Shown one piece after another: positions 1 to 62,851 of a stretch of 64,000 bases of DNA. A program made the translations under genes and the position numbers. The notes beneath the pieces were generated by a model. The model was given only the letters and a program-made list of their open reading frames with translations, did no database searches and was not told the DNA's origin. Each line of letters starts with the position of its first letter. Positions within the stretch are counted from its first letter, which is position 1. Origin of the DNA: Raphanus sativus (lineage: Eukaryota; Streptophyta; Magnoliopsida; Brassicales; Brassicaceae); contig NC_079519.1 in NCBI RefSeq assembly GCF_000801105.2, positions 26,635,288 to 26,699,287 of the forward strand, written 5' to 3'.

Positions 1-70
1 ATCAACGATGATGGTTATCTGATCTTTTCTACCTTTTTTACATGTGTAGATGACATAATTAATCTACTAA

Positions 71-660
71 TCTATCTTATTAAAACAGAAACATTATGAC
101 TTTTTCTAGGTGGATTTTTAAATTGGACCTACTATTAGATATGATATATTTTCTGATCCTATTAACTAACAATTAATGTTAGTAAATTATTTTCTTATTC
201 TATGCTAACTTAATACCTTATATACATTCATTTTATCAGTTGGCCCATTTTCTTTCTATTCAAAAAAAATATTTTCTTTCCTAATTGATTTCATAACCAA
301 CATGCAGTAATGTTAAATTTGAGATTTCATAATCACCATCCAATAAGTCTATGCGATGATCACCATGCAATACATTACTCCTTAACCAATTAATTTTATA
401 TAATAGTCGTATTATATGATATATTCAAAGTGGATTAAAATCAAACTTATTAACCCATTACTTTTTAACCAATTCAAACATGATTATATATCGGATTACC
501 GGGTTTACTGGCTCGACGATCTAAATTAGATTTAAAAATGTTGATTCAAACGCAGTTTTTTAAATAGACAAAATTCTTACATATTAAATATTTGTAACAT
601 TGTTAACAAAATTGTGAATCATAAAATATTCCGCGCTTCCGAAGCGCGGTCATGATCTAG
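71..660 (+). mobile_element. Non-autonomous Helitron A, left arm only
   Basis: Starts TCTATCTTATT and ends CTAG, with a perfect 19-bp hairpin (CCGCGCTTC-C-GAAGCGCGG, 631-649) just before the terminal CTAG. It sits between A and T, as Helitrons do. The right arm around 62,780-62,790 has the unoccupied site, so the insertion followed the split of the two arms. No coding capacity is seen in its 590 bp. Confidence 0.88.
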
Positions 661-691
661 TTAGTTGAGAAATAAGAGTCAATCCGAATAA

Positions 692-1539
692 TCTATACTA
701 TTATTATCTATTATCTGCGAAGTGATTTTTCGCAACGGAACTCTCACGTTAAAAGTTAGACTGGTTAATATCGCTTATACCCTTAATGAATAAACATATA
801 AATTATCTATAAATAAAAACGAATTTTAATTTTATGATTAGATAACTGATTAAAATTAATAATGATAAGAATTATCTAAAATTTAAAAATATATTTTAAA
901 ATAAAAAATTACAGTGACTAATATTGTTTATATCCTTTTAGGATAAATATATAAATTACCTACAAAACAAATTAATAATGATAAGAATTATCCAAAATCT
1001 ACAAATATATTATAAAATAAAAAATTTAGAGTGGTCAATATCATTTATACCCCTAATGAATAAAACATAAATTAACCACAAAATAAAAAAAAATTTAATT
1101 TTTTGATTAGAATTAATATTAATAATAATTATCCAAAATCTAAAAGTATCTATTAAAATAAAACGAACTTATATTTATCATATTATTTTAATAAAAATTA
1201 TATTATTTTTATTTCAATCTAAACAATAAATATATTGATCCAATTATTACTTTTTGTAAGTAATTTTTTTTATGTTTAAATAGTATAGATGAGAAAAATA
1301 TATGTAATGAAAAATATAAATAATGGAAAAGAAATGGAAAATATAAGCAAAATATAAGTAAAAATAAGTGTACAAAAAGTGATAACAAAAGTATGAGATT
1401 TCAAAATCAAAAATATTTTTAATATGTTAGTATTTTCAAAAATTTAATACAATAATAAACATATATATTTTAATAAAATATATAAACTAATAAATATTCG
1501 GAAGAAAATTGTGCCCGCAAATGCGGGCAAAACACCTAG
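692..1539 (+). mobile_element. Non-autonomous Helitron B, present in both arms
   Basis: Begins TCTATACTATTATTA and ends with the hairpin GCCCGCAAATGCGGGC followed by aaaacacCTAG, flanked by A and T. Internal AT-rich blocks of about 190 bp recur in degenerate form (around 745-935, 915-1,050, 1,020-1,160). The mirror copy (62,252-62,750) has lost the 3' half, including the hairpin. No genes inside. Confidence 0.85.
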
Positions 1540-1602
1540 TTTCCCCTAAAAAGTAAATAAAATAGGTTTAGCGGACTATGAAGGGTCTACCAATCTATAT
1601 AA

Positions 1603-1809
1603 GGGCATAATTAACTCCGGTTTTTTAGCCGGGATTCTTAACTCATGATTTGACATTTTTATATATATTTTTCGGCTAAAAACAACTCTTATATCTTTTA
1701 TTTAAGAAATAATTCTTAACTTTTCTTAGTTAAAATCTAAAAAAAACTAAAAATCGTCTCTTGACTGAAGTTAAGAACCTCGGTTAAAAAGTCGGGGTTA
1801 ATCATTGTC
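1603..1809. mobile_element. Tourist-like MITE
   Basis: About 207 bp with imperfect terminal inverted repeats of about 37 bp (GGGCATAATTAACTCCGG at the left, a diverged inverse at the right), flanked by TAA on both sides, the usual PIF/Harbinger target duplication. Its equivalent in the right arm lies inside a deletion. Confidence 0.6.
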
Positions 1810-1835
1810 TAAGGAGCATGTCACAAACACAAGCC

Positions 1836-2479
1836 GAGGCCGTTGTAGTGTTTGTGGTCTCTTTCCATCGGCCTCAAAACCAACCTACGATGCCTTCCTG
1901 CATAACATTTGCTAATTCTTATGATCAAAAAGATCCATCTCTTCTAGAACAACACATTATTTGGGTCTAGTGATGGGCTGCAACACTTTCTGTTTCATTA
2001 ACTGGACTTAAATTAGTCAATGAGGCCTAATCATGTAGAGCTTGCCACCTCGACCGACCTTTTGTGGTCGTCATATGACGCTTTGCTTTCTAATGACACA
2101 AGCATGAATCATGCTCATCATTAATACATTAGGATAACGTTAACAATGGACCAACCATACTTTATACTACAGACAAAGTTAAACGTAGTAATCATATAAT
2201 CTTTCCTTCGACGCCTTGGTGATGCTTTTTAACTATGGTACCAAATAATTTTATTTTTCAATAAAATACATAAATTAGACAGTCTCGTAACTTAACAAGT
2301 AACTCCATGTATATGTAAATGGTGTATAAACGACTATAGTTTATACGAATAGTTCATGTTAAGTTGTCCGTCCTTGTGTTGCGTTATGGTGTGCTGTATA
2401 TTTTCTTTTTTTCTAATAGAATTTTAAATTTATTCAAAACTTAGGTACAAATAATGCATCTTTCTATAAGAAAAAAAAA
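1836..2479. other. Gene-free conserved intergenic segment
   Basis: This stretch pairs with about 61,605-62,246 of the other arm. I see no gene, RNA or mobile-element termini in it on either strand. Confidence 0.6.
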
Positions 2480-3854
2480 GGAAAATTGCCAAAAAAGAAC
2501 AAAAAAATAAGGTTGTTGTTCCCCTGGTATAAAACCAACATAAAATTGTCCCAATAGTATAATATTTCTCATAATCCCAAAACTAACCCTATAATTAATC
2601 TAACTAAACATAATTTAAAAGTTAATTTGAATTAAAAAAAATATTATCAAGTGGTTGATAATAATCAAGATTCTACGTGGAGGCTTAAGACCAGCATACC
2701 TTTTCAAAAATATTTGATTAACTATAATCTAGTCTCTGACATCTTGTGTGTAATAGGTTAGTTGTTCATTGTGATCAGTATTTGATTGGATCGTCTAATT
2801 GATGTGGTCAGTTAGATATATATGTGTTCCGTCACCTTGTTTCAAAATTTAGGTTGACAAAATGCAATGATTATATAGTTTTAGTATTTACTGTTATCAT
2901 TACGGCTTCAAATCGGCTAAGCTATCTTCTTCCATATCAAAATCATCCACAACCATTCTTTTTAAATCCTCTAAAGTAGAATTTGATTCCAATAACTGTA
3001 GTCTAACCCATTTGTCATCAGCAGAAAAAACTCATACAGTAGTTTCACCTAATTTTCAAACACCACATATGGTATAAATATGCATCATAAAGAACAAGAG
3101 TTTGTGAAAAAATTCAAAAGAAAAGCTATAGAAAAACCATAGATTGATGAAGAAGATAATGGAGAATCATTTTTTTTTTAGTTTTTGACAAGTAAAATCG
3201 AAAATAACACGTTTTAGGAAGTTAGAATATTTTTAGAAGATTTTTAGAATATTTCCTTAACTGAAACTTTCATTAATTTTCGCAAAAATCAGGTAATCTT
3301 ATCAGTAAAAGGCGCCTTCTAAAAGTTTAGAAGATTGACAAAAATCCAGAACACGCTTTCTACTTTTAGTATACTTTTAGTAGACGGAAGAGTATATTTT
3401 AGAAAACACATTCCGCGAAATCTAGAATACTTAATAAAAGTAGAAGATTCTTCTAGACGAAAAGTAGATAGTTTTAGGATTAGTAGAATGCGCATTCCAT
3501 TTTTTTAGAAAATTAGTAAATAGTAGAATGTATGTTCTAAAAATAGTAGATGAACATGTTTATTTTAGAAATCACTTTCTACTATACCATTTTCCCTAGA
3601 AGGAACATTCTACTTTTAGTAGAACATATTTTCAAATTTTTATTTATCAACTTTTTGAAGAAAAAAAATACCAGCTTGTGTATGTAGATGTTTTATTAAT
3701 TGTTTATATTTTTAATATTTTTTTTATTCACAAAAGTATTTATTTCATTATTTTTCAGAAATACAAAGGGTAAAAAGGAGAAAAATTAGACAAAAAATGA
3801 TTTATACCAAAAGGACAGCACTTTTGTTTTTTTGTTCTCTATTGGCAATTTTCC
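2480..3854. mobile_element. MULE-like terminal-inverted-repeat element, left arm only
   Basis: The ends are inverted repeats of about 27 bp (GGAAAATTGCCAA then AGAACAAAAAA; mirrored at 3,828-3,854). The flanks are A-rich 9-mers (2,471-2,479 and 3,855-3,863) that could be a 9-bp Mutator-type duplication, though low complexity weakens this. There is no transposase frame. The 3' third (3,350-3,640) is packed with TCTAC/GTAGA words. The right arm lacks it. Confidence 0.7.
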
Positions 3855-3868
3855 CAAAAAAAATAGAA

Positions 3869-4340
3869 TTAAGCCTTAAAAGTGTTTAGAAAAGAATTCG
3901 AAAGAACCAAAGTTTCCATGCTTATTTTGAACCAACTTGTCCAGATAAGTAATCGGTCGATTAGAAGGCTTTGGAGGCTCTCCAACTCCACGAACATTTG
4001 GCTCATACCAGATAGCGTAAACCACTGCTTGGAAGCAATACAAAAATAAGAAAATGGAGCTTCTCTCTTGTAGTCCATCCATCCACCAGTTTTTGAACCA
4101 AGAGAGACCATTGGATTCGACAACTTGTACCAGCCAGATCTTTAATAGTTCCAAGCCAAACACATTCTCAGAATAAGAACATTCAAAAAATGGTTTCTTC
4201 TTTATGTGACAGAGTTACAGAACCAACAAATAGAGACAGTTTGTGGGTTCCACTCGAGTAGATGATCTCCTGACGATAATTTGTTATGAACCACAATCCA
4301 TGTAAAAAATGAGTCTTAGGAGTTGCTTCTAGAAACAAGA
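3869..4340 (-). pseudogene. LINE remnant, zf-RVT-like C-terminal part
   Basis: Read on the minus strand, the open segment contains AIWYEPNVRGVGEPPKPSNR followed by ITYLDKLVQNKHGN. This is like the tail of plant non-LTR retrotransposon polyproteins after the reverse transcriptase, where an IWxERNxR...P..R..L.D..V motif is common. Upstream a CWFCNS motif suggests the preceding zinc-binding part. Frames are broken and no reverse transcriptase is nearby, so it is debris. The mirror copy is at 59,770-60,241. Family assignment is from motif memory. Confidence 0.55.
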
Positions 4341-4599
4341 CTCATTTATACCATAAATTTTTTGGTGACTCCAACCTTATGATGTGGTGAAATCGGGGCG
4401 AAAATCTCCAACCTTATAAAAGAAAAAAAACTAATATAACCTTAATTCATTAGTTAATTAATAAAATAACTCCAAATTTATTTTAATTACTTATTTTATT
4501 TCCGTACTTGTTTTATCTTTAATTCTTTGAAATCAAAAACTATAATTACGAAAATAACATTACTCACAAATTTATTTTGTTCACGTTTTATATAACCAC

Positions 4600-5085
4600 A
4601 TACTTATTTTTACTTTTATTTGGTGACACATTTATTCTAAATGCTATAGACTTATAATTAGATTGCTACAGATTTATTTTAGTAAATTTGTCACGTTTAG
4701 TCACAGATTTATATTTTTTACAGATTTAATTAAGTTTAGTTTTTTTGTCTGACATATTTAATTAATTTGACATATTTTTATAAGAATCGATAGACTAGTT
4801 TTTCTTTTGGTCACCAATTTACCTATTTTTGACAGATTAATTTGGGTTTCAATAGATATATTATTCTTTGGCCACATGTTTAAATAATTTTGAGACATTT
4901 AATATAGATTTGATAGATTTAATATCTTCTGACCACAAATTTACGTAATCTAGACATATTTAATATGAATTTGATAGATTTATTTATTTTTAACCATAGA
5001 TTTAATACAATTTGACAGATATTTTTTTACTTAAACGAGAGATTTGTTAATTTTTTGTCACATATTTAAATTTGACTTAGCTAAA
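4600..5085. repeat. Degenerate ~61-bp AT-rich tandem repeat
   Basis: Successive units each hold the pattern (T)GG/ACCAC..ATTTA, then GACA.ATT(T)AAT, then TTGATAGATTTA. The clearest units begin near 4,807, 4,869, 4,929 and 4,991, spaced about 60-62 bp. The array is also present in the other arm at about 58,990-59,480. Confidence 0.6.
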
Positions 5086-5268
5086 CTGGTTATTGAAAAC
5101 CGGATTTAACCATTAAATTCTGAGTTTTTTTAGTATTCGGACAATCAAGAAATAAACCGAGATATTTCTAAAAAACAAGTTAAATTATGTAAACTAAAAT
5201 TAATTAAAGTAAAAACAAAACTTAATTAACCAAGAAAAAAATCCCTAATCTACAAAAGATCCAGCATA

Positions 5269-6103
5269 CAGGGCCGTCTCAAACTTTTCACGGATCCTGT
5301 TCAAAAAAAAAAACTTCTTTTAATAATCTGAATTTTTTTTGATTTTTTTTATAAAATAATATTATAATATAAAATAAATACATTAATTTAATTATTTATA
5401 ATCTAAATAACACCAATTTTTTTGTTATTAATGCAAAATCATTGATCAAATCATTAAACTTGTTTACTTAGTATTTTTCAATGCAAAATCATCGATCAAA
5501 TCATCAGATTTACATTTTCTAATTTTTTCAGTTTTTTACGTTTATTATATCCACAATCAGAAATCATAATCTATAAATATAATAGAGTAACAAAATCCGG
5601 ATAGTAAATATACTCTTGATTAGACAAGTCAATCTTTTTTCTTGTAAAAAGAAGTTGTATGTTAGCTTTATTTTCTTCGTGTTTGCTATTTTTAATTAAA
5701 AATGGTGAAAAAATATATTTTGTTCTACGTATTTATAATCACTAATTGATAATTGTTTCCTCAACATAATCAATTAGAATATTAACTTTTTATACTACCA
5801 TTGAATATTATAACAAACATCAACAACTATTTATTACTTTCCAAAATATATAATTGATATAAATACTAAGTATTTCCTAATTTATTGTCTTTTAGTTGGT
5901 TATATAAACAAAATAAAAAGTTGCAATTTACATTTATTGGTTATGAATACGAGAACTAAATTAAAATATAGTCATTCTGATTTTTTTATAAAAATATGAT
6001 TTTAAATTTATAACTATTAGTAAAACAAAAAAAAATTATGGACCCTCTAAAATTTTGGACCCTGTTCGACCGCTCCACTAGCACGTGCTAAAAGACGGCC
6101 CTG
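5269..6103. mobile_element. hAT-type non-autonomous element, left arm only
   Basis: An 835-bp element bounded by CAGGGCCGTCT and its inverse AGACGGCCCTG, with the 8-bp target duplication CCAGCATA at 5,261-5,268 and 6,104-6,111. The right arm near 58,820-58,830 has a single CCAGCATA, the empty site. The interior is AT-rich and non-coding. Confidence 0.92.
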
Positions 6104-6278
6104 CCAGCATATGTTCTTCTTCGATGAGGTTACGATTTCACCATCATCAATCAGTAAAGCTCTTTTGATATCACTGTACATAATACATATTGTGTGACTT
6201 ATTATTATGAGGAAAGAATCCAACTAAAGCAGATTAGATCACAACTATTCTACGAATAAATTATATGAGAGATACAGA

Positions 6279-6499
6279 CCCGGGGTGGATCCACTTGAAG
6301 AGGTGTGAGATTAGTTGACATCAGTAAAATAATAAAAATTAGATTTGTAGGCTATAAACATCAATCTTCTGCTTCAAAAGTGGTTTGACTTTAGGTAACC
6401 GAAAATCTACAAATCTCAGGTTCAAACCCCTTTATGACCATTTTCACATTTTATATTTAACCTTTGACACCAGTAAAATTTAATGTTGGGACCGCCTCT
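6279..6499. mobile_element. hAT MITE, in both arms
   Basis: About 221 bp between two copies of GATACAGA (6,271-6,278 and 6,500-6,507). The ends are CCCGGGGTGGATCC and an inverse related to AGAGGCGGTCC, a weakly conserved hAT-style terminal pair. The interior contains GGTTCAAACCC, resembling a tRNA B box, probably incidental. The right-arm copy is split by Helitron F. Confidence 0.65.
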
Positions 6500-6507
6500 G
6501 ATACAGA

Positions 6508-7485
6508 TCCGCCGTGCCTGTTTGGCAAAAAATGAAACAATGACTTAGAGCATCGATTTGATTTCAAATAAATTTAGAGGCATGTCTACAAATACTCTTT
6601 TTCATATGGTTTAAATTTTTGTTTCTTCTTACAAAATTAATCTTTTTCTTTTGAAACTGTTTTTTACAAAATTAATCTTTCTTTCTAACTCTCCACTTTT
6701 TTATATTTAACCTCACGACAATGAATTATATTTTCATTAGCTTCGCATTTGGTAATTAACTTATTCCATTTTACTTACTTAAGAAGTTATATTATATAAA
6801 TTATTGCATTATGGATCATAGTTCTATATAAAATTTATATTTTTGTAAATTTTTTATTTTTATGTCAACAAATAGTTTATTTATAAATTTAATTTCCTTA
6901 AAATTTTACGTATTATAAATTTACTTATTTAAAATTTTGGCTATTTTTTATTGTGCTTTAGGCAGCAAAAGATTAGAGTTAATCTAAGTAATTTTCAAAA
7001 GAAATGGCCTTTTACCAAAACGTCATAAATATAATAATTCACTTAGACAAAAAAATATAATAATTCACCCACAACGTCTTCTACTTAACCGTAAATTAAA
7101 ATAATATGACTGTTAGGAAGTTTGGTCGCTCGATCTTTAATTAAATTAGAATAATTCCCCACTTCTAGTTACTATTCGTAATGAAGACAAAACATGTATA
7201 ATAAAAAAACTTAGGTGAAGGTTGCTGTAACCATTGAGCTAACTGATCTCAACCGCAGCCACTTGAAGACAAATAATTCGTACAAATATATAACTAAATT
7301 GCAATAATTACAATAGGTGCGTTTTATTACCTCTTATGATTCTAAGCAAAGTTTGTCGCTCTGTAAGCAAGGCGAGAGATATTAGTTATACACTTAAAAG
7401 TTCTATCAGTTTACCACAGAAGTTGAAGCATCTCGTTAATTGTTTCGTTAAAGTAATACGATTGTTCTCGGAGGTAGAAGCACTA
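6508..7485 (+). promoter_or_regulatory. SCAR4 upstream region, left
   Basis: About 1 kb upstream of the SCAR4 start codon, AT-rich, with no gene seen. At 7,218-7,260 the minus strand reads GTTAGCTCAATGGTTACAGC, similar to a tRNA A box, but there is no folded tRNA and no downstream B box. Conserved in the other arm (54,477-55,455). Confidence 0.4.
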
Positions 7486-10400
7486 ATGACGTTGACGAGA
7501 TACCGGATACGGAACGAGTACGGCTTGGCGGATAAGGAGCTCTACAGCGATAAGGAAGATGCTGAAGATTTGCTGGAAGGTTCATCAATGGCCGGACTCG
7601 TCGGCCTTTTGCGCCAGCTTGGCGACCTCGCTGAGTAAGTTCTCTCTCCCTATTTGAGTTTTGTTCATCATATTTTAGTATTTATCTAAGATATTTCATT
7701 CATGATTATTTGAAAACCAATGTTTCAACTCTGTCCTTATTTTCACATTTATGTGTCGTGTCTATTTTACGATATAATAAGGTTTGCTGGTGAAGTGTTC
7801 CATAACCTGCATGAAGAACTAATGACAACTTCAGCACGAGGGCAAGGTTTGGCAGTTCGTCTTCAACAGCTTGAAGCAGAAGTTCCTAATTCAGTTGAGA
7901 TACCTATTCTGTCTCAAACGGATCATTCAACATTCTTTTACGAACCAGGCGAGTCATTTTTGATCTTACTATAGCTTAATTATACTAATTACAAGAGCTA
8001 TGAGCTATTAGATTCTTCTTTTAGAGCATGTCCAACGGAAGGCTGTGACTGAATTTCTAATGATTAAAAGAAAAGAAAAAAAGAAATTTGTTCAAAAAAA
8101 TACAACAATCGGTCCTTGAATTAGTGCCTGGAAGAAACTCTCTGTAACTTTTCCTTCCACATGTCATTTGCATCAATGGTTTAGACATTTGATTTTTATC
8201 CTTTAAACACAACAAATTAAAATAATATATTTTTTACTTTTAAAAACCTGTTTTTAAGAGCATGCGCAGTACAAGTCTCTAGCACCATTTCTCAACAATT
8301 AAAAAATATAAAAAATTCAGAAAGAATAAATATAAAGTAAAAAGAAAGAGAGAGAGGAGTAGGAACGATTGGTCAAAAATAGACTTTCTTGTTTGTTGTA
8401 AAGATTAGTTTTCCACTTGTCATCTTTTTAATAGTATAAAGCTTTTGATAAAGATAGATTTAATTGTGGAAGAAAATTTATGTAAAAATATTAATATACT
8501 AAGTTGAAAGATTGGATTCAAGAAACAAAACCAATGCTGATGCTCTAAAATCTTATCGTTAAGGTTGCTCTAAAGTCCTCTTATGCACAAATATTTCAGG
8601 GTTGGAATGGCATTGTAATTTGCAAACAGAAGAGAATCTAATTTCTCCAAGCAAGTTGCCTCATTGTATTACGGATTCATATGAGGAATGCCGTGGTCCG
8701 CCACAGCTCTACCTTCTTGACAAGTACAAGTTTCAGTAAATAGATTCAAGGAAGTTTCAGAAGTCTTAATTATAATAAAACTTGGCTTACAAGTTTGTCA
8801 TTTGTCATTTTTTCTGCTGTCTTTAAGGTTTGATGTTGATGGGTCTGGATCATGCTTGAAGCGTTACTCTGACCCATATCTGTTGAAGACGCTTACTGCA
8901 TCAGCAGTCCTGGGAACATCACAACTCAGCAAAGATGAGAGACCAAACAAACCAAAGGTATTCATGTAATACATATTCTTATTCTCAATTTACTTAACTA
9001 CTCAGATCTTGTCACTGTCTTGTCCAAAACAAGCATCTAGAATGCAGAATTGTGTATTTTATGTGGTACAATATTTTTCATCTACAGAAGAAAATATCAC
9101 ACATTAGTAATGGAGAGACGGCACTTGAGGATTCACAAACATCACATGCTAAGTGAGCACTCATGCTTTATATTTAGTTTTGTCTCAGCCATTACTGTTT
9201 CTCAAGTTAACATGATCAACTCTTTGATTTGGTGACACAATCTGCTTTTTGGATGGTACAGGTTGAATCAGCTCTTCTTAATGGACCATGTTGAGAACGG
9301 ACACAAAGATCCTGAATTTTATGTGAAACTAAAGAAAAGACATCTGAATGGACCTCCAATTGACTCAAGCTCAGGTTATATGGAGAAGTTCCTCAAGAGT
9401 CTGGATCAGTCATCTTCAGCAATGGAAACTAAAGTTACAGCATGCAACGTACGAGTAGACTTATCAACACCTTCTTTGGTTTATCTTCCAAGCAATGAAG
9501 ATACTAGAAAAGCGAAGGAAATGGAAGCCGTTGCTGATGATGAAAGACCTTATGTAGAGGGAGGAGCAATAATGGTTTGTGTAGAAAGAAGCTCTTTGGT
9601 GAATAATGACACAGATGCACCTGCTTCCACAGACGGTGATGACAAGGCTGATGGTAACTTGGATAATGCAGATGTGACTCAAACAGAGGTCCTGGCTTCT
9701 AATATTTTGTACCACTCAACGGAGGAAGGAGAATCTAGTCAGTTAAACGCATCAGAGGGTGGGACCAAAGATCTTCAAACAAATGACGTTGAGGATGCTC
9801 ATTCTCAACATGTCTTCAGTGTGGAGACTGGATCTGAGATGTCTTTAACTGGTTTGGTGGAAGACCAGTTCTCTTCCATAACCAATCAGGAGACAGAGAA
9901 AGAGCCTGATTGTCTTCTTATTCAAAACCAGCATATTAGCACATTTAACAACTTTGAAGATTTATCTATGCATGTTGATGCAGTACATGACAATGCTGTT
10001 CCAAGAGAAGATGAAACCAACACACAAGATGGATATTCCATGAGTACCGAACAGTCTGGACACATTTCAACTTTTGATATCAGTTCAGAAGCTGGAACTC
10101 TGATGTTAGATACTCCAAGAGATGGTCTCACAGGAAACATGAACCCCTCAGCCTTATCTTGTCAAGAAGACGCATTAGCCGACTCTGATCTAGGTGAGAT
10201 ATCATCAGATTCTGGACAAGAGGATCCACAAACCATGTCTATTATTGCAGATGTGAGTAGTGATGGTACTGATGGTGCAGCAGGTGATAACCATACTAGC
10301 CTGAATGATAAGGCCAGTGAGACCGTCCCCGAAGTGGACTTAGAAGTAGATCCGCAAGAGTGTCTTTTAGGTGCACAAGAATGTTTGTCACCTGAGTATT

Positions 10401-11777
10401 GCATACAGATACATGGCCAAGGTCAAGAGAGCCCATCAGAAACAGAGTCAGAAAATCAAACAGCAGCAGCCGAGTTACTTTCTTCACAAGATGTTCCACT
10501 TGGTGTTCAGTGTTCACCTTCAGAGGAAACACTAACAAGCAATGAAAAGCCTTACCGTTCAAGTGAAGCTGAAGGAGAAGCTCTTAATGCACCACACCAA
10601 GGAGCTATCACATCATTAAATGGTAATATCTCTGAGTCTGATCATTCCATGGAACCTACTACTGATCAAGAAAATTGCTTGGATGTGCCCATGTATCCCT
10701 TCTCCACGTCCCTCCATGAAGCACCTCAGGAAGATCCAGACATAAGGCCTCCACTTCCACCTCTCCCTCCAACACAATGGTGGATGGGGAAGCTGTTTGA
10801 TTCTGTTAAAACAACCGAGACTCAGTTCTCTCCAGCGCCATCACTTGCATACAATGAAGACACACATAATGGATTCGTTCAAGCGACCGCTGCACAAGAT
10901 TCCTCAGTTACAGCAGGTGAAAACCAAAATACTGATGTTTATACAGTTTCAGCACAAACTACTCTGAATGAACAGTCTCCTTCAGAATCAGTTGCTTGGA
11001 TGTCACTACTACTCACACCTGAAGTTACACCAGAGGCAGAATCAGCCCAAGGTTTAGAAGCACTTGAGTGGTTTAGTCAGAACTTCAAAGAGCATACCAA
11101 TACTAACCTTACAAAGCTAGAAGAGGAGCCTAAGCTTGATCAACCACCAGGGGAAACAGAACGAGACAATAAATCATATGAACAGAATGAGAAAGTTGAG
11201 AAGCTTCCAAGAGACAAGGAGTCTCTTGTTATCGGCATTGATAGAAGCATGGTGATTAATAATTACCTTAAAGTTTATATCTCTATGGTTAGTTTAGTAG
11301 TTATCTCTCTCGCTTACGTTGATCATGTGACTCTATTTTGTTTGAATGCAGTTGAGGAAGGTATCTGAACGAAACAGGACACAGCTTCGAGCTCGAGTGG
11401 AAGAGAATGATTCACTACTGGAGATCATACGCAGCAAGGTCAAACGCTCTTTTTTTTTTCCCTTTTGACTTCACTTAGCTTCTATAAAGTATAAACTACT
11501 AACTGATAAAATGTATTAGCAGTCATTCAACTTGAGACCAGCAGATGCATCGGTGAGACACAACTTTCAAGTAGCTGCTCCTATAACCAATTTGAAGGTC
11601 GCTGCAATTCTAGAGAAAGCCAATAGTCTTCGCCATGTCTCTCTCTCTAACCTTATTTGGTTTAATTTGGAAAATTACATGTATATATTATATCAAAAAG
11701 TGATTAATGTTTTTAATTATATGTAGGCAATGGCGGGAAGCGACGACGACCACGATTCAGATAGCTGGAGTGAATGA
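7486..11777 (+). CDS. SCAR4: SCAR/WAVE family actin regulator (SCAR4-like), left copy
   Basis: Nine exons: 7486-7634, 7782-7948, 8600-8723, 8828-8957, 9088-9152, 9262-11251, 11352-11438, 11523-11636, 11727-11777; 2,877 nt, 958 residues. The family scaffolds the WAVE complex and activates Arp2/3 actin nucleation at the plasma membrane. The N-terminal SCAR homology domain (residues 1 to about 210) is clear: [66 protein letters not shown] long acidic, low-complexity middle in exon 6 has a proline block ([17 protein letters not shown]). The C terminus has a WH2/verprolin segment, a central segment ([15 protein letters not shown]) and an acidic tail ending DSDSWSE with the key Trp. The start is the Met matching the family N terminus. 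Intron 2 has a GC donor (7,949-7,950) where the right copy has GT. Arabidopsis SCAR4, as I recall, is about 1,170 aa, so the middle is shorter here. Confidence 0.9.
8268..8545. mobile_element. Tourist-like MITE in SCAR4 intron 2, left arm only
   Basis: A 278-bp insert with ends GAGCATGCGCAGT and the inverse of GAGCATCAGCATTGG, flanked by TAA on both sides (8,265-8,267; 8,546-8,548). The equivalent right-arm intron (about 53,765-53,800) lacks it. Confidence 0.7.
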
Positions 11778-16116: not shown

Positions 16117-16178
16117 TTGGTTGATTAATGGTTTGGTTATCCATTAGTCGCTTAATTTTATCTTTCTTTTATTAAGAA

Positions 16179-34136: not shown

Positions 34137-34149
34137 CATCAACATGAAC

Positions 34150-45903: not shown

Positions 45904-45910
45904 TTTTATA
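45904..45910 (-). promoter_or_regulatory. TATA box of right metacaspase
   Basis: TATAAAA on the minus strand, 52 bp from the start codon, with the adjacent TTGACT conserved. Confidence 0.5.
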
Positions 45911-45943
45911 TTGATGAAAAAGGCTTCTAACTTTCTTGTTCAA

Positions 45944-50707: not shown

Positions 50708-53700
50708 TCATTCACTCCAGCTATCTGAATCGTGGTCGTCGTCGCTTCCCGCCATTGCCTACATATAATTAAAAACATTAATCACTTTTTGATATTATAT
50801 ATACATATAATTTTCCAAATTAAACCAAATAAGGTTAGAGAGAGAGAGAGACATGGCGAAGACTATTGGCTTTCTCTAGAATTGCAGCGACCTTCAAGTT
50901 GGTTATAGGAGCAGCTACTTGAAAGTTGTGTCTCACCGATGCATCTGCTGGTCTCAAGTTGAATGACTGCTAATACATTTTATCAGTTAGTAGTTTATAC
51001 TTTATAGAAGCTAAGTGAAGTCAAAAGGGAAAGAAAAAAAGAGCGTTTGACCTTGCTGCGTATGATCTCCAGTAGTGAATCATTCTCTTCCACTCGAGCT
51101 CGAAGCTGTGTCCTGTTTCGTTCAGATACCTTTCTCAGCTACAGTCAAACAAAATAGGGTCACATGATCAACGTCAGCGAGAGACATAACTACTAAACTA
51201 ACCATAGAGATATAAACTTTTAAGGTAATTTAATCACCATGCTTCTATCAATGCCGATAACAAGAGACTCCTTCTCAGTTTTCTCATTCTGTTCATATGA
51301 TTTATTGTCTCGTTCTGTTTCCCATGGTGGTTGATCAAGCTGAGGCTCCTCTTCTAGCTTTATAAGGTTAGTATTGGTATGCTCTTTGAAGTTCTGACTA
51401 AACCACTCAAGTGCTTCTAAACCTTGGGCTGATTCTGCCTCTGGTGTAACTTCAGGTGTGAGTAGTAGTGACATCCAAGCAACTGATTCTGAAGGAGACT
51501 GTTCATTCAGAGTAGTTTGTGCTGAAACTGTATAAACATCAGTATTTTGGTTTTCACCTGCTGTAACTGAGTCTTCTGGGGAATCTTGTGCAGCGGTCGC
51601 TTGAACGAATCCATTATGTGTGTCCTCATTGTATGCAAGTGATGGCGCTGGAGAGAACTGAGTCTCGGTTGTTTTAACAGAATCAACCAGCTTCCCCATC
51701 CACCATTGTGTTGGAGGGAGAGGTGGAAGTGGAGGCCTTATGTCTGGATCTTCCTGAGGTGCTTCATGGAGGGACGTGGAGAAGGGATACATGGGCACAT
51801 CCAAGCAATTTTCTTGATCAGTAGTAGGTTCCATGGAATGATCAGACTCAAAGATATTACCATTTAATGATGTGATAGCTCCTTGGTGTGTTGCATTAAG
51901 AGCTTCTCCTTCAGCTTCACTTGAACGGTAAGGCTTTTCGTTGAATGTTAGTGTTTCCTCTGAAGGTGAACACTGAACACCGAGAGGAACATCTTGTGTA
52001 GGAAGTGACTCGGCTGCTGCTGCTGCTGTTGGATTTTCTGACTCTGTTTCTGATGGGCTCTCTTGACCTTGGCCATGTATATGTATGCAATACTCAGGTG
52101 ACAAACATTCTTGTGAACCTAAAAGACACTCTTGCGGATCTACTTCTAAGTCCACTTTCGGGACGGTCTCACTGGCCTTATCATTCAGGCTAGTATGGTC
52201 ATCACCTGCACCATCTCTTTGAGTATCAGTACCATCACTACTCACATCTGCAATAATAGACATGGTTTGTGGATCTTCTTGTCCAGAATCTGATGATATC
52301 TCAGCTAGATCAGAGTCGGCTAATGCATCTTCTTGACAAGATAATGCTAGATCACTGTCATGTACTGCATCAACATCCATAGATAAATCTTCAAAGTTGT
52401 CAAATGTGCTAATATGATGATTTTGAGTAAGAAGACAATCAGGCTCTTTCTCTGTCTCCTGATTGGTTATGGAAGGGAACTGGTCTTCCACCAAACCAGT
52501 TAAAGACATCTCAGATCCAGTCTCCACACTGTAAACATGTTGGGAATGATCATCCTCAACGTCATTTGTTTGGAGATCTTTGGTCCCACCCTCTGATGCG
52601 TTTAACTGACTAGATTCTCCTTCCTCCGTTGAGTGGTACAAAACATTAGAAGCCAGGACCTCTGTTTGAGTCACATCTGCGTTATCACAGATCTGGATCT
52701 GTCTAAAGTTACCATCAGCCTTGTCATCACCGTTTGTGGAAGAAGGTGTTGCATCTGTGTCATTGTTCACAGAAGGTCTTTCATCATCAGCAACGGCTTC
52801 CATTTCCCTCGCTTTTCTAGTATCTTCGTTGCTTGGAAGATAAACCAAAGAAGGTGTTGATAAGTCTACTCTTACGTTGTATGTTGTAACTTCAGTTTCC
52901 ATTGCTGAAGATGACTGATCCAGACTCTCATGAACTCTTGCACAGTTCGTCAAAGAATTCTTGAGGAACTTCTTCATATAACCTGAGCTTGAGTCAATTG
53001 GAGGTCCATTCAGATCTCTTTTCTTTAGTTTCACATGAAATTCAGGATCTTTGTGTCCCTTCTCAACATGGTCCATTAAGAAGAGCTGATTCAACCTGTA
53101 CCATCCAAAAAGCAGACTGTGTCACCAAATCAAAGAGTTGATCAAATTAACTTGAGAAACAGTAATGGCTGAGACAAAAGTAAATATAAAGCATGAGTGC
53201 TCACTTAGCATGTGATGTTTGTGAATCCCCAAGTGTCGTCTCTCCATTACTAATGTGTGATACTTTCTTCTGTAGATCAAAAATACACAAATTGTGATTC
53301 CAGATGCTTGTTTTGGAAAAGACAGTGACAAGTGTATTAAGTAATTCAGAATAAGAAAATGTATTACATGAATACCTTTGGTTTGCTTGGTCTCTCATCT
53401 TTGCTGAGTTGTGATGTTCCCAGTACTACTGATGCAGTAAGCGTCTTCAACAAATATGGGTCAGAGTAACGCTTCAAGCATGATCCAGACCCATCAACAT
53501 CAAACCTTAAAGACAGCAGAAAAAATGACAAAAGACAAACTTGTAAGCCAAGTTTTACTATAATTAAAACTTCTGCAAAATTCCTTGAATCTATCTACTG
53601 AAATTTGTACTTGTCAAGAAGGTAGAGCTGTGGCGGACCACGGCATTCCTCATATGAATCCGTAATACAATGAGGCAACTTGCTTGGAGAAATTAGATTC

Positions 53701-54476
53701 TCTTCTGTTTGCAAATTACAATGCCATTCCAACCCTGAAATATTTGTGCATAAGAGGACTCACTTAACAATAAACTCTTAAAAAACAGGTTCTTAAACGT
53801 AAAAGATATATTATTTTAATTTGTTGTGTTTAAATGATAAAAATCCAATGTCTAATCCATTGATGCACTGAAATGAAAGTTATAGAGAGTTTCTTCCGGG
53901 CACTAATTCAAGTCACAGCCTTCCGTTGGACATGCTCTTATAAAAAAAGAATCTAACAGCTCATGGCTCCTGTAATTACTATAATTAAGCTATAGTAAGA
54001 TCAAAGATGACTCACCTGGTTCGTAAAAGAATGTTGAATGATCCGTTTGAGACAGAAAAGGTATCTCAACTGAATTAGGAACTTCTGCTTCAAGCTGTTG
54101 AAGACGAACTGCCAAACCTTGCCCTCGTGCTGAAGTTGTCATTAGTTCTTCATGCAGGTTATGGAACACTTCACCAGCAAACCTTATTATATAGTATGAA
54201 TAGACATGACACATAAATGTGAAAATAAGGACAGAGTTGAAACATTGGTTTCAAATAATCATGAATAAAATATCTTAGATAAATACTAAAATGATGAACA
54301 AAACTCAAATAGGGAGACAGAACTTACTCAGCGAGGTCGCCAAGCTGGCGCAAAAGGCCGACGAGTCCGGCCATTGATGAACCTTCCAGCAAATCTTCAG
54401 CATCTTCCTTATCGCTGTAGAGCTCCTTATCTGCCAAGCCGTACTCGTTCCGTATCTGGTATCTCGTCAACGTCAT
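50708..54476 (-). CDS. SCAR4: SCAR/WAVE family actin regulator (SCAR4-like), right copy
   Basis: Minus-strand exons 54328-54476, 54016-54182, 53611-53734, 53376-53505, 53205-53269, 51238-53095, 51052-51138, 50853-50966 and 50708-50758; 2,745 nt, 914 residues. Eight exons have exactly the left-copy lengths; exon 6 is 132 nt shorter. The main gap is after AVHD, where the left copy has about 50 residues running to [10 protein letters not shown]; the right copy in turn has extra pieces such as NCARVHES and a QIQIC-containing block. The SCAR homology domain and WH2-central-acidic tail ending DSDSWSE are complete. Intron 2 has a normal GT donor. This is the most diverged of the five pairs, concentrated in the low-constraint acidic middle. 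Confidence 0.9.
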
Positions 54477-55463
54477 TAGTGCTTCTACCTCCGAGAACAA
54501 TCGTATTACTTAAAAATGAAACAATTAACGAGATGCTTCAACTTCTGTGGTAAACTTAGAACTTTTAAGTGTATAACTAATATCTCTCGCCTTGCTTACA
54601 GAGCGACAAACTTTGCTTAGAATCATAAGAGGTAATAAAACGCATCTATTGTAATTATTGCAATTTAGTTATATATTTGTACGAATTATTTGTCTTCAAG
54701 TGGCTGCGGTTGAGATCAGTTAGCTCAATGGTTACAGCAACCTTCACCTAAGTTTTTTTATTATACATGTTTTGTCTTCATTACGAATAGTAACTAGAAG
54801 TGGGGAATTATTCTAATTTAATTAAAGATCGAGCGACCAAACTTCCTAACAGTCATATTATTTTAATTTACGGTTAAGTAGAAGACGTTGTGGGTGAATT
54901 ATTATATTTTTTTTTGTCTAAGTGAATTATTATATTTATGACGTTTTGGTAAAAGGCCATTTCTTTTGAAAATTACTTAGATTAACTCTAATCTTTTGCT
55001 GCCTAAAGCACAATAAAAAAATAGCCAAAATTTTAAATAAGTAAATTTATAATACGTAAAATTTTAAGGAAATTAAATTTATAAATAAACTATTTGTTGA
55101 CATAAAAATAAAAAATTTACAAAAATATAAAATTTATATAGAACTATGATCCATAATGCAATCATTTATATAATATAACTTCTTAAATAAGTAAAATGGA
55201 ATAAAGTTAATTACCAAATGCGAAGTTAATGAAAATATAATTCATTGTCGTGAGGTTAAATATAAAAAAGTGGAGAGTTAGAAAGAAAGATTAATTTTGT
55301 AAAAAACAGTTTCAAAAGAAAAAGATTAATTTTGTAAGAAGAAACAAAAATTTAAACCATATGAAAAAGAGTATTTGTAGACATGCCTCTAAATTTATTT
55401 GAAATCAAATCGATGCTCCAAGTCATTGTTTCATTTTTTGCCAAACAGGCACGGATCTGTATC
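54477..55463 (-). promoter_or_regulatory. SCAR4 upstream region, right
   Basis: Mirror of 6,500-7,485; AT-rich with no gene. The tRNA-A-box-like GTTAGCTCAATGG is at about 54,718-54,731. Confidence 0.4.
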
Positions 55464-56049
55464 AGAGGCGGTCCCAACATTAAATTTTACTGGTGTCAAA
55501 GGTTAAATATAAAATGTGAAAATGGTCATAAAGGGCTTTGAACCTGAGATTTGTGGATTCAGTTACCTAAAGTCAAACCACTTTTGAAGCAGAAGATTGA
55601 TGTTTATAGCCTACAAATCTAATCCCCTTACTATTATTTGAGAAGACCACTTATGAAAATAACCTTTTGCCCATGTGTTTTATTACATGTGTGCCATTTC
55701 TTATGTGGCATCTCCACATTTCATCTCACACCAATTTTTCAAAAGTCCATCCTTGTCTAGAATATTTACATCTCATGCCATTGTAGTGCACATATGTTAT
55801 AATCAATGCTTTTGATGTGCTATACGTGATGTGCATATAGTTAATGTCCAATGCTATATAGTTAATGTCGAACAGATTTTCTCTTCTATTAAACTTTTTT
55901 ATGTTTATAAATTCTTCCTCGCAGGAAATGTTCAACGTATTATAACTTTTATATTATACCCAATGCTTTTTATGTATATATATATTATACCCAATGCTTT
56001 TTATGTATATATATATAAATTTTATGTTAGTATCAGCATTATAACTTCT

Positions 56050-56105
56050 ATCCAAGAACATATATATATTAAACTTTTGTATGTTTATAAAATATTCGAT
56101 CCAAG

Positions 56106-56139
<34 letters not shown>

Positions 56140-56610
56140 ATCCTAGAACATATATATTTATATTTTTTGATCCAAGAACATATATATATATATATATAAT
56201 AATATATAATATAAATGCTCATATTTTATTACACATCCATCATTTCGTGAAAAAAACTAATTTTTATACTTTTGTATTTTTATAATACAATGAAAGCATA
56301 ATGTAGAGGGATTAAATGATACAATAAATGTCATTATGAATATGAACGTTTCGGTTATGATTGATTTATATTAAGTCCGTAATCAGATCGTACATTATTA
56401 TTGATTTGTGTTTCTTGATTGATATGATAAAGCATGATTGATATGATTACGGATTTAAATTTTAATGTTTCATATTTGAGATTACCATTTTTATAAAAAA
56501 ATATAACATCCATCATTTTTTATGTACATAATATATATATACATTTGATCCTAGAATATATATTTATATTACATACATATATATATATATATTTGATCCT
56601 AGAATATATA
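56050..56610 (+). repeat. Dispersed GATCC(A/T)AGAA(C)ATATATA repeats with (TA)n tails
   Basis: Six or so copies of a 14-18-bp word (near 56,049, 56,098, 56,140, 56,169, 56,547, 56,595), each followed by a TA run of variable length, inside Helitron F. Confidence 0.7.
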
Positions 56611-57080
56611 TTGTTAATATAATTTTCATATTTTCATACTCATCCATCATTTCGTGAAAATTAATTTTTTTCTTTTGTATTTTGTTATAATACAATGAAG
56701 GCATAATTTAGAGGTATTAAATGATACAATAAATGTCATTTTTGGATATGAAATCTCGGTTATGATTGGTTTATGTTAAGTCCATAATCAGATCGTACAT
56801 TATTATTGATTTATGTTTCTTGATTTTCCTGAATATGAAATCTCGCAAAGAACATATTGATATGATTAACAATATTTCTTTTAATGTTTAATTTTTGAGG
56901 TTACCATATTTATAAAAAAAAATTAACATCCATCATTTCGTCATTAACAATTATTTGATGTTACCATAATTAAAAAAATTCTTTGTCAAATTTGTTATAA
57001 AAGGAAAGCCAGGTGAGTAAATTATGTCTTCTGTTTTCTTATAAACACTCTTTCTCACATTTCGTTCATACCCAACAAAA

Positions 57081-57784
57081 ATGGATGTCTTCTGTTTTGT
57101 GCCTTTCAAAAATATTCTAGATGGATCGCGTAATCCTCATATTCTGATTGGTAATTCATTTTTTTATGTTCATGAAGTATCAAATATTGTTTTACTAGCA
57201 GCGTATTTTTGTATAGTTGTCGTACTAATCCATTTTGGTTATCATAGATGTCATCGGACATGTTGTGCAAGCGGGTCGCATTTAGATGTTTTCTGTTAAT
57301 GGAAAAGTTATCCCGAAGATTTCATTGCTAATACGTGATGCAGAGTAAGTTCCGTTTAAAAACCATATTCAATTTTTGTCACATAGTTGATATTTTACAA
57401 AAAAAAAGTAATTGGATACACTTGCTCTATTATAGATTATTGATTTTTTAATTTTCAATGGTCTCTCAGTGATGTCCGTCTTCCAGTTGTACTGTGGGGA
57501 AATGTCGCCACTGATCTCAACAGTGCTATCCAGCTACGTCTTGGTCGTCCTATTATCTTGGTCATGAAGTCAATGGCTATTAAAGTGGTTAAAGGTACAT
57601 GAAAATATGAGTGGAGATACATCAGACTATATGTAAATTATACACTTTATTTTTATTCGAATTTATAAACATTAATATTATTGTGTCAACCTTTCGTAGA
57701 AGATCGTTCTTTGTCGAACACACTCGACATGTCCTATGTGCAGATAAATCCCAACATAGCAGAGGTTGAGGAATTCAAGGCACA
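57081..57784 (+). pseudogene. RPA1-like OB-fold (DUF223-type) gene fragment
   Basis: Four exons with good splice sites and phase: 57081-57150, 57248-57344, 57480-57594 and 57700-57784. They read VPFKNILDGSRNPHILIG, DVIGHVVQAG, an in-frame TAG, FSVNGKVIPKISLLIRDAED, VRLPVVLWGNVATDL, and YVQINPNIAEVEEFKAQ. LRD...RLPVVLWG and INPNIAEVEEF are hallmarks of plant replication protein A large-subunit-like OB folds, single-strand DNA-binding proteins often linked with Helitrons. The stop and the absence of downstream domains make it a remnant or captured piece. Confidence 0.75.
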
Positions 57785-58989
57785 GTAAGTACCTATAGGT
57801 TAAAAAACATATTAAAAAGGAAGTTTAGTAGGAATCTTAAGAGGCCATGAATTGATTCAACGGAGATTTGGTTTTATATCGTTTGTTATATTTGTAAAAT
57901 TTTGTTCTTTATAAAAGTCATTAGTTAGGTGTATATTAATCTATATGTTATATTCAAAAGTTAAAGACTTTTATAGTACGTGTTTTACGTATTTTTACTT
58001 CATCTCAGTCTCTTTCTAACTAAATTTGGTATGCAATTCGATATGTTTGACTAAAATAAAAAAGGTTGTTGTTTCCTATAATATATTACAAATCATAATC
58101 ATGTCATTATGATAATAGTCATCACCGCTGTAAATTTAATTGATTCCTTTTACTAATTCAAATTTGATCGTAATTTATGCAATACCAAAAAAATAGGAAA
58201 CTGAAATATGCAATCATCATAATGAATTTTAGTTTTGTTTAATATAGAAAAGTTACTATAAATTTATTTAAATTCTCATAACTAATTAAAAATCACACAC
58301 AAAATTCATTATTAAAAAAGTTTTTTTTTAAATAAAAAAAATCTAACCAATTACACAAGTTATAAATTACTCTTATAGATTTACTTCCTTAAAATTTACT
58401 TCAATTACGGCTAAGCAATCACACAAGTTTTTTAAAAAATCAAAGCTTACCTTATATAATAAACATGGATAATGTTCTTCGATATTTTATTATAAACATG
58501 TAATATTTGTAACTATAATTTTTATCTTTCTAATATCTATAGTTTAAAAGCTTTAATTTTTATTTAGTCATTCACTCCGCGTAGGGCGCGGATACCGCCT
58601 AGTTTTTATTATTTTAATGTCAACTAATCTCACACCTCTTCAAGTGGATCCACCCCGGGTCTGTATCTCTCATATAATTTATTCGTAGAATAGTTGTGAT
58701 CTAATATGCTTTAGTTGGATTCTTTCCTCATAATAATAAGTCACACAATATGTATTATGTGCAGTGATATCAAAAGAGCTTTACTGATTGATGATGGTGA
58801 AATCGTAACCTCATCGAAGAAGAACATATGCTGGATCTTTTGTAGATTAGGGATTTTTTTCTTGGTTAATTAAGTTTTGTTTATACTTTAATTAATTTTA
58901 GTTTACATAATTTAACTTGTTTTTTAGAAATATCTCGGTTTATTTCTTGATTGTCCGAATACTAAAAAAAATCAGAATTTAATGGTTAC

Positions 58990-59480
58990 ATCCGGTTTTC
59001 AATAACCAGTTTAGCTAAGTCAAATTTAAATATGTGACAAAAATTAACAAATCTCTCGTTTAAGTAAAAAAAATCTGTCAAATTGTATTAAATCTATGGT
59101 TAAAAATAAATAAATCTATCAAATTCATATTAAATATGTCTAGATTACGTAAATTTGTGGTCAGAAGATATTAAATCTATCAAATCTATATTAAATGTCT
59201 CAAAATTAATTAAACATGTGGCCAAAGAATAATATATCTATTGAAACCCAAATTAATCTGTCAAACATAGGTAAATTGGTGACCAAAAGAAAAACTAGTC
59301 TATCGATTCTTATAAAAATATGTCAAATTAATTAAATATGTCGACAAAAAAAACTAAACTTAATTAAATCTGTAAAAAATATAAATCTGTGACTAAACGT
59401 GACAAATTTACTAAAATAAATCTGTAGCAATCTAATTAAGTCTATAGCATTTAGAATAAATGTGTCACCAAATAAAAGTA
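58990..59480. repeat. Degenerate ~61-bp AT-rich tandem repeat, right copy
   Basis: Mirror of 4,600-5,085, with the same unit structure and similar length. Confidence 0.6.
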
Positions 59481-59769
59481 AAAATAAGTATGTGGCTATA
59501 TAAAACGTGAACAAAATAAATTTGTGAGTAATGTTATTTTCGTAATTATAGTTTTTGATTTCAAAGAAATTAAAGGTAAAACAGGTACGGAAATAAAATA
59601 AGTAATTAAAATAAAATTGGAGTTATTTTATTAATTAACTAATAAATTAAGGTTATATTAGTTATTTTCCTTTCATTTATTTTCCTTTGGAAAAGGGAGA
59701 ATGGAGATTTTCGCCCCGATTTCACCACATCATAAGGTTGGAGTCACCAAAAATTTTATGGTATAAATG

Positions 59770-60241
59770 AGTCTTGTTTCTAGAAGCAACTCCCAAGACT
59801 CATTTTTTACATGGATTGTGGTTCATAACAAATTATCGTCAGGAGATCATCTACTCGAGTGGAACCCACAAACTGTCTCTATTTGTTGGTTCTGTAACTC
59901 TGTCACATAAAGAAGAAACCATTTTTCGAATGTTCTTATTCTGAGAATGTTTGGCTTGGAACTATTAAAGATCTGGCTGGTACAAGTTGTCGAATCCAAT
60001 GGTCTCTCTTGGTTCAAAAACTGGTGGATGGATGGACTACAAGAGAGAAGCTCCATTTTCTTATTTTTGTATTGCTTCCAAGCAGTGGTTTACGCTATCT
60101 GGTATGAGCGAAATGTTCGTGGAGTTGGAGAGCCTCCAAAGCCTTCTAATCGACCGATTACTTATCTGGACAAGTTGGTTCAAAATAAGCATGGAAACTT
60201 TGGTTCTTTCGAATTCTTTTCTAAACACTTTTAAGGCTTAA
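59770..60241 (+). pseudogene. LINE remnant, zf-RVT-like part, right
   Basis: Mirror of 3,869-4,340. Here the motif reads AIWYERNVRGVGEPPKPSNR, closer to the usual IWxERN of plant LINE tails than the left copy. Ends at the insertion point of Helitron G. Confidence 0.55.
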
Positions 60242-61592
60242 CTAGATTTTGACCCGCCCTTAAAAGGGCGGATATATTTTCTGTTTTAAATTTAGTTTTC
60301 ATATTTGTGTTTTCTTTGATTATATTCATATATTTCTTTGTAATTATATTTGTGAGTAAATTAAAATATATTTTATTAAATAATGGCAATTTAAAAATTG
60401 ATCTGGTATATGTTCGGTTAAGGATGGGTTGCGGATCGAACCCGGCCTGCTGACCCGCCAATCCGCGGATTTCAATTTTGTTCTAGTCAAAAAATCTGAC
60501 CCATATAACCCGCAAACAAATAATTTTGTACCCGTTCCGCTTAATTTTACGGTTATCTGCGAGTTATTTATTTTAAACAATAATTCTTTAATATAATTAT
60601 TATGAAAATATATAAAAATATATTTATAATAAACCTTTTATCTATTATCAAAATTTATATACAGTTGTATATTTTGATTTGAATAAAACAATATTTAAAA
60701 CTTAAATAAGATATATGGTTTGAAAGTTGAGGTCGGATCATAATTTTAAATTTTTTTTCGTTATGGTCAAAACAAAACAATAATTTAAATATGTAATTTC
60801 AATGTCAATCAAAAGGATTTATCTTTGTCCAAGTTCTCGTTATTTTCTCGTGATTGAATATTATTTATGAAAATGTAACATCAGTATTTATATTTTGAAA
60901 CATCACATGTATTCTCATCCTTAAATAAGAATGTAGTTGAACGTTCTGTTTAAAAATATGTATATTTAGTTTGGGTTCGAAGAAACTACATATAACATAT
61001 AAACCTTGTACTTGTATCCATTTATTAAATTCGGGTTTGTAAAAAGAAAGAAGTTTGGGTTTGTACAAATTGCATATAACTTATAGATCTTGTACAACTA
61101 TTTGTTATGTATATTCGTTTAGTTAGTTACATGAACATAAATCTATGAATTTTAATAGCATAAATATGAATTTAATTTCGACCTATGATAATAATATAAA
61201 TCTATTTAGACCCGTTAAAACCTATTAACTAATTGGTCTCGTGACCCATTCCTTTGTTTTAGAACTAACCGTAATGTATTTTTCTTTTGAACACATAACC
61301 GTAATATATTTAACTATTAAAGCTAAATATCAATGGGTTCTAAAGGCAGTTATATTGTATGCTCTCGATAAATACAACCGTAATATTATTTGTTATAATC
61401 GACTTGTCAACTTGTTTAGAACATGGACCCCACATGTATTGTATGCTCAACGTGAAAATAGAGGAAGTTAAGAAGTTACAGTTAAATAATATTCTAGATG
61501 CAGTTATATTTATTTTATATTGTAGATGCAGTTATAAAAATTAAAAGATGGACATAACTTTTATCAATAGGTCATGCTGAAGAATTAATAGA
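60242..61592 (-). mobile_element. Helitron G, right arm only
   Basis: In minus orientation the 3' end is a CCGCCC-ttttaa-GGGCGG hairpin followed by gtcaaaatCTAG (60,242-60,245). The 5' end is approximate; TCTATTAATTCTTCAGC ends at 61,592. The left arm has a direct join near 3,866 and a different insertion (MULE) in the neighbouring A-tract. No gene cargo recognised. Confidence 0.7.
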
Positions 61593-62251
61593 ATAAATTA
61601 TTTTTTTTTATAGAAAGATGCATTATTTGTACAAAAGTTTTGAATAAATTTAAAATTCTATTAGAAAAAAAGAAAAGAAAATATACAGCACACCATAACG
61701 CAACACAAGGACGGACAACTTAACATGAACTATTCGTATAAACTATAGTCGTTTATACACCATTTACATATACATGGAGTTACTTGTTAAGTTACGAGAC
61801 TGTCTAATTTATGTATTTTATTGAAAAATAAAATTATTTGGTACCATAGTTAAAAAGCATCACCAAGGCGTCGAAGGAAAGATTATATGATTACTACGTT
61901 TAACTTTGTCTGTAGTATAAAGTATGGTTGGTCCATTGTTAACGTTATCCTAATGTATAATGATGAGCATGATTCATGCTTGTGTCATTAGAAAGCAAAG
62001 CGTCATATGACGACCACAAAAGGTTGGTCGAGGTGGCAAGCTCTACATGATTAGGCCTCATTGACTAATTTAAGTCCAGTTAATGAAACAGAAAGTGTTG
62101 CAGCCCATCACTAGACCCAAATAATGTGTTGTTCTAGAAGAGATAGATCTTTTTGATCATAAGAATTAGCAAATGTTATGCAGGAAGGCATCGTAGGTTG
62201 GTTTTGAGGCCGATGGAAAGAGACCACAAACACTACAACGGCCTCGTAGGT
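61593..62251. other. Gene-free conserved segment, right
   Basis: Mirror of 1,836-2,479. No gene, RNA or element termini found. Confidence 0.5.
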
Positions 62252-62750
62252 TAATAGATATTTTTAGATTTCGGATAATTATTATTAATATTAATTCTAA
62301 TCAAAAAATTAAAATTTTTTTTTTTGTTTTGTGGTTAATTTATGTTTTATTCATTAGGGGTATAAATGATATTGACCACTCTAAATTTTTTATTTTACAA
62401 TATATTTGTAGATTTGGGATAATTCTTATCATTATTAATTTTATTTACTTATGTAATCAAAAAAAAATTCGTTTTTATTTTGTAGGTAATTTATATATTT
62501 ATCCATCAAGGATACAAACAATATTAGTCACTGTAATTTTTTATTTTAAAATATATTTTTAAATTTTAGATAATTCTTATCACTATTAATTTTAATCAGT
62601 TACCTAATCATAAAATTAAAATTCGTTTTTATTTATAGATAATTTATATGTTTATTCATTAAGGGTATAAGCGATATTAACCAGTCTAACTTTTAACGTG
62701 AGAGTTCCGTTGCGAAAAATTACTTCGCAGATAATAGATAATAGTATAGA
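62252..62750 (-). mobile_element. Truncated Helitron B, right copy
   Basis: The 5' TCTATACTATTATTATC ends at 62,750. The 3' part, hairpin and CTAG are gone: homology to the left arm stops at left position 1,155 and resumes at 1,836, with about six filler bases between. Confidence 0.85.
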
Positions 62751-62851
62751 TTATTCGGATTGACTCTTATTTCTCAACTAATTACTAGATTAATTATGTC
62801 ATGTACACATGTAAAAAGGGTAGAAAAGATCAGATAACCATCATCGTTGAT

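Follow-up and report, generated by a model that had tools for sequence, protein, structure and literature searches.

A 64,000-base stretch of radish (Raphanus sativus) chromosome C9 (C9:26,635,288-26,699,287; hereafter the window) reads as one large inverted repeat, with five genes occurring once on each side of a gap of 100 N. The question raised by this locus is whether chromosome C9 carries a real inverted segmental duplication at this position, or whether two haplotypes were joined head to head during scaffolding; an initial annotation, made from the letters of the window, had offered both possibilities. The sequence comparisons reported here argue that the apparent inverted repeat is an assembly artefact (we put the probability at about 0.94), specifically a false haplotypic (heterotype) duplication in which an uncollapsed second haplotype was scaffolded into the chromosome in flipped orientation. 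The five genes look duplicated, but most likely are not truly duplicated.

Assembly Context of the Window

The assembly that contains the window comprises 433,372,886 bases in 6,413 contigs, with a chromosome C9 of 37,282,294 bases. It is taken to be WK10039 Rs2.0 or a near version; the published Rs2.0 values differ slightly in total bases and scaffold number (N50 of 37,282,294, 433,430,583 bases, 6,424 scaffolds and 269,710 N, as tabulated in PMC10831357). The window was extended by 100 kb on each side, and the resulting 264 kb were split at N runs; the contigs are named c0 to c11, and coordinates outside the window are given relative to it (negative to the left). This stretch falls into 12 contig pieces separated by 11 gaps, and the gap size is exactly 100 N in 11 of 11 cases. 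At the N count published for Rs2.0, about 1.6 gaps would be expected, an estimate that assumes every gap to be 100 N and a comparison that is biased, since the window was selected as one that contains a gap.

Inverted Homology and Contig Boundaries

The two arms and the hinge between them are arranged as follows:

1..38403, forward strand: left arm, part of contig c4 (whole c4 from -41670 to 38403, 80,074 bases; homology ends at 37017)
38404..38503, unstranded: hinge scaffold gap of 100 N, one of the 11 gaps in the 264 kb
38504..64000, reverse strand: right arm, part of contig c5 (whole c5 from 38504 to 78316, 39,813 bases), the presumed second haplotype, flipped

The arms were compared by a BLAST search of the window sequence against its reverse complement, followed by block alignment. 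Within the window, 16 colinear inverted blocks link the left arm (1-37017) to the right arm (62851-38504), with 455 substitutions at 19,806 aligned sites (2.30%), a divergence per block of 0.9-9.5%, and 86 indels within blocks; the mirror-image arms of the initial annotation are therefore found where it had placed them. Its description of the gap holds as well: the sole N run of the window lies at 38404-38503, and right-arm homology starts at the next base, 38504. The extent that it gave to the inverted repeat (1..62851, or 62.8 kb) reflects the cut of the window; with the flanks included, the chain spans -15318 to 78301, or 93.6 kb, although its outermost block is a match of 195 bases at 80% and the next block ends at 78122. 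Between blocks, about 1.35 kb have no match in either arm (2480-3859 and 60251-61597).

Both contigs are complete between two gaps, and c5 is flanked by a 100-N gap at either end. The colinear inverted chain covers bases 16-39,813 of the 39,813 bases of c5; on c4 it occupies -15318 to 37017. It is broken by arm-specific insertions, and its roughly 33,074 aligned sites show 2.26% substitutions; counting matches of at least 150 bases and at least 85% identity, 84% of the c5 bases are matched to c4. The homology edges of c5 lie 1 and 16 bases from its gaps, and no junction of duplicated with unique sequence was seen inside this contig. The right arm alone adjoins the hinge gap directly; the left contig continues for 1,386 bases beyond the last homologous base before reaching the gap, and this additional c4 sequence begins where c5 ends at the gap. 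The two copies thus lie on separate contigs with an assembly gap between them, and the shorter is matched from end to end within the longer at allelic identity, as expected for a false haplotypic duplication. A sequenced junction, either between the arms or from the second copy to unique DNA, would mark a real inverted duplication; none was found between the arms, where the hinge is a gap.

Smaller features are also seen in the arms. About 270 bases are inverted between them (35196-35465 against 39932-40202, at 95.6% identity) and form a direct repeat within the window, a small inversion difference between the two presumed alleles. In the left arm, a 450-bp tandem duplication (14361-15263, 96.9%) has both of its copies matching a single right-arm stretch. 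The right contig contains a 1.7-kb direct repeat (63973-65675 and 67404-69107, 99.1%), both copies of which match approximately one stretch of the left contig; this is probably a copy-number difference between haplotypes. At the right edge of the window (63313-64000), short TTTTCCCGCCAAAACC-like units form a degenerate array, which is matched at 74% by left-contig sequence outside the window.

Redundancy of Neighboring Contigs

Similar redundancy is present among the neighboring contigs. Contig c2 (12.3 kb) repeats the start of c4 from the first base of c4 onward, in direct orientation, with 58% covered at 93.3% identity (-64355 to -52142 against -41670 to -32362); this is probably an overlap of two haplotypes. 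On the other side (78417-144634, or C9:26,713,704-26,779,921), the contigs c7, c8, c9, and c10 repeat c6 colinearly and in direct orientation, with 60, 83, 100, and 96% covered at identities of 93.2, 95.1, 89.7, and 87.2%, respectively, and they probably represent a second set of retained haplotype contigs. Together with the c4/c5 pair, the 264 kb contain three duplicated units, each divided by at least one gap; repeats within single contigs do not exceed about 1.7 kb. No such partner contig was found within the 264 kb for c0, c1 (129 bases), c3, or c11, with c3 having one 161-base match to c4; c4 and c6 have one 0.8-kb repeat in common. A simulation with 11 random gaps gave 0 of 200,000 for both of the questions put to it, the first of which is not relied on here: the gaps themselves cut c7 to c10 into separate pairs, and the duplicated units number three, not six.

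Arm-Specific Insertions

Each arm carries insertions that are missing from the other. The examples below lie between the blocks; the class names other than Copia (hAT, Helitron, SINE) are our presumptive assignments.

5269..6103, unstranded: left-only DNA transposon, presumably hAT-like, with CAGGG...CCCTG ends and CCAGCATA flanking both sides; the right arm has the empty site
16179..19561, reverse strand: left-only insertion with a presumably Helitron-like end
20029..20711, unstranded: left-only self-complementary (fold-back) element
25264..33590, forward strand: left-only 8.3-kb insertion with a Copia retrotransposon frame at 25924-29967 and AACAATAG flanking both sides
38580..38753, unstranded: right-only insertion of 174 bases, presumably SINE-like
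55624..58598, unstranded: right-only insertion of 2,975 bases with a presumably Helitron-like end

Because of these arm-specific insertions and the 455 substitutions, the arms are independent copies, each with its own history; an in-silico copy of one contig is ruled out, just as the initial annotation had argued from the same two features.

Gene Pairs

Five gene pairs occur in both arms in matching order, encoding SCAR4, an AMP-binding enzyme, a caspase-domain protein, an A20/AN1 zinc-finger protein and a protein with a Cu/Zn-SOD domain; the labels 4CL-like, metacaspase-like and CCS-like in the following list are ones that we assume for these genes.

7486..11639, forward strand: SCAR4, left copy (P0001, 958 aa), protein mapped to the left arm
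50853..54476, reverse strand: SCAR4, right copy (P0003, 914 aa), protein mapped to the right arm
12381..16116, forward strand: 4CL-like AMP-binding enzyme, left copy, approximate extent from open frames, one exon scanned
48752..50072, reverse strand: 4CL-like AMP-binding enzyme, right copy, delimited by two exons only, one exon scanned
21182..22266, forward strand: caspase-domain (metacaspase-like) gene, left copy, second exon scanned
44768..45852, reverse strand: caspase-domain (metacaspase-like) gene, right copy, second exon scanned
22587..23051, reverse strand: A20/AN1 zinc-finger gene, left copy, identified by Pfam
43990..44454, forward strand: A20/AN1 zinc-finger gene, right copy, identified by Pfam
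24021..24846, reverse strand: Cu/Zn-SOD-domain (CCS-like) gene, left copy, exons found so far, identified by Pfam
42190..43014, forward strand: Cu/Zn-SOD-domain (CCS-like) gene, right copy, exons found so far, located by tblastn with the left exons

In the exons scanned, Pfam found three domains (AMP-binding, caspase, and A20/AN1) in each of the two arms, and the SOD domain in the left arm. At a threshold of 0.001 Pfam gave no match for either SCAR4 protein; the protein search listed precomputed domains for both, and public protein sets list both copies as full radish proteins encoded on a contig of 37,282,294 bases. Six exon pairs from four genes (1,388 codons) contain no stops and yield a pooled nonsynonymous divergence (dN) of 0.016 and a pooled synonymous divergence (dS) of 0.036; this pool is built from partial exon sets, with codons opposite gaps dropped and the Cu/Zn-SOD gene left out, and in exon 2 of the 4CL-like gene the compared stretches are offset, so that 192 of 207 codons are aligned. 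Five intact gene pairs had been proposed at the outset; the five pairs stand, and intactness extends to these six exon pairs and to the two full SCAR4 proteins.

The large SCAR4 exon (9263-11251 against 51238-53094; 663 vs. 619 codons) differs at 3.5% of aligned coding sites, with a dN of 0.032; the remaining compared exons differ by 0.2-1.7% between the arms. Because its large exon differs more than the other exons, SCAR4 would appear to be loosely constrained or fast evolving.

Origin of the Two Arms

The head-to-head scaffolding join of two haplotypes that the initial annotation had named as one option is strongly supported, since gaps at both ends set c5 apart as its own contig, the inverted chain runs over its length, and its neighbors are redundant as well; from these features and the uniform 100-N gaps, we infer that the arms represent two alleles of a single locus. 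The sequenced radish would have carried two diverged alleles here, differing by approximately 2.3% substitutions and by large insertions that only one of them carries. The assembler would have left these alleles unmerged, with one forming contig c4 and the second contig c5, and scaffolding would then have set c5 next to c4 in reverse, with the standard 100-N gap between them. Short contigs are not reliably oriented during scaffolding, and this would account for the flip that makes one of the three duplicated units resemble a palindrome. Heterozygosity in this material has been proposed on other grounds: WK10039 is inferred to be an RsS-9/RsS-30 heterozygote in an account noting that its genome sequence of 2016, an earlier version, has both S haplotypes (PMC10316313), and a second account calls radish self-incompatible, allogamous, and highly heterozygous (PMC7334891). 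In line with this reading, benchmarking universal single-copy orthologs (BUSCOs) are 20.9% duplicated in Rs2.0 vs. 7.8% in Bakdal within one common table (PMC10831357).

Several considerations weigh against this interpretation and have to be set beside it. If WK10039 were a doubled haploid, it could not carry two alleles. The radish lines in PMC10804855 are called inbred in that study, which gives single WK10039 genotypes at three single-nucleotide polymorphisms of one gene. A genetic map is described as remarkably collinear with the WK10039 genome (PMC6920339), on the basis of 100-kb bins that are too coarse for a 40-kb contig. For another radish assembly, 23.1% duplicated BUSCOs were ascribed by the authors to the old triplication (PMC7334891). 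Finally, a 40-kb control on chromosome C2 was without gaps and without long duplication. As far as this one 40-kb sample shows, the assembly fault is local or patchy, and it is not claimed to be genome-wide. For an inbred line, one would expect retained haplotypes only in patches of leftover heterozygosity, which would fit the local clustering seen here.

The initial annotation had also allowed for a large, real inverted segmental duplication. Such a palindrome on C9 would be fairly recent, would measure 94 kb, and would include the five genes, with the assembly breaking at both of its edges; it would have to be recent enough for 97.7% identity at aligned sites, and old enough for each arm to have acquired its own transposons. 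The arms are indeed adjacent, inverted, and colinear, each with its own insertions, and it is established knowledge that assemblers often break at hinges; however, a palindrome also requires a further assembly break no more than 16 bases from its outer edge, and it requires separate real duplications for c2/c4 and c6/c7-c10 within the same 264 kb, with every division falling at a gap. Palindromes under gene conversion keep their arms near-identical; the arms at this locus, in contrast, are not near-identical, and their blocks diverge by 0.9-9.5%. The right arm as a single contig bounded by gaps at both ends, and the redundancy of the neighboring contigs, lead us to reject a real palindrome, which we regard as very improbable; this part of the earlier proposal is unsupported. 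Least probable of all is that scaffolding brought together homoeologues or paralogues dating from the ancient Brassiceae triplication, or sequences of two plants whose DNA had been pooled: a genome triplication of radish is on record (PMC7334891), but its paralogues are ruled out by the similarity of the arms, which with 2.30% substitutions, a pooled dS of 0.036 over the 1,388 codons, and intergenic DNA in common are far closer than we would expect of triplication copies, and pooled DNA, although it would produce the same picture as two alleles, would be a false duplication all the same.

Comparison with Known False Duplications

A false haplotypic duplication at this locus would have parallels in other assemblies. 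For the false heterotype duplications and false gene gains treated in PMC9516828, the marks listed there are an assembly gap that separates the copies, read depth at the haploid level, discordant linked reads, and heterozygous k-mers. The radish arms are alike in being adjacent copies across an assembly gap, and the extra gene models of that study have their counterpart in the two SCAR4 proteins listed for radish; the likeness is drawn here from the gap and the gene models only. For users of this radish assembly, the locus serves as a warning that gene pairs separated by 100-N gaps in this part of C9, such as SCAR4, are probably alleles; if such pairs are taken as duplicates, gene-family and copy-number counts are inflated. 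Read as an allele pair, the arms would instead provide a record of the difference between radish haplotypes, with approximately 2.3% substitutions and many large presence/absence insertions.

That diverged haplotypes can leave two copies in one assembly is described for haplotypic duplications, or retained haplotigs, in the work on purge_dups (Guan et al., 2020; PMC7203741). The radish case is alike in that two diverged haplotypes would appear as two copies in the primary assembly, and the contained and overlapping contigs distinguished in that paper are both present here, with c5 contained in c4 and c2 overlapping the start of c4. In contrast to the cases described there, the chromosome scaffold includes the second radish copy in flipped orientation, and hence the locus takes on the look of a palindrome.

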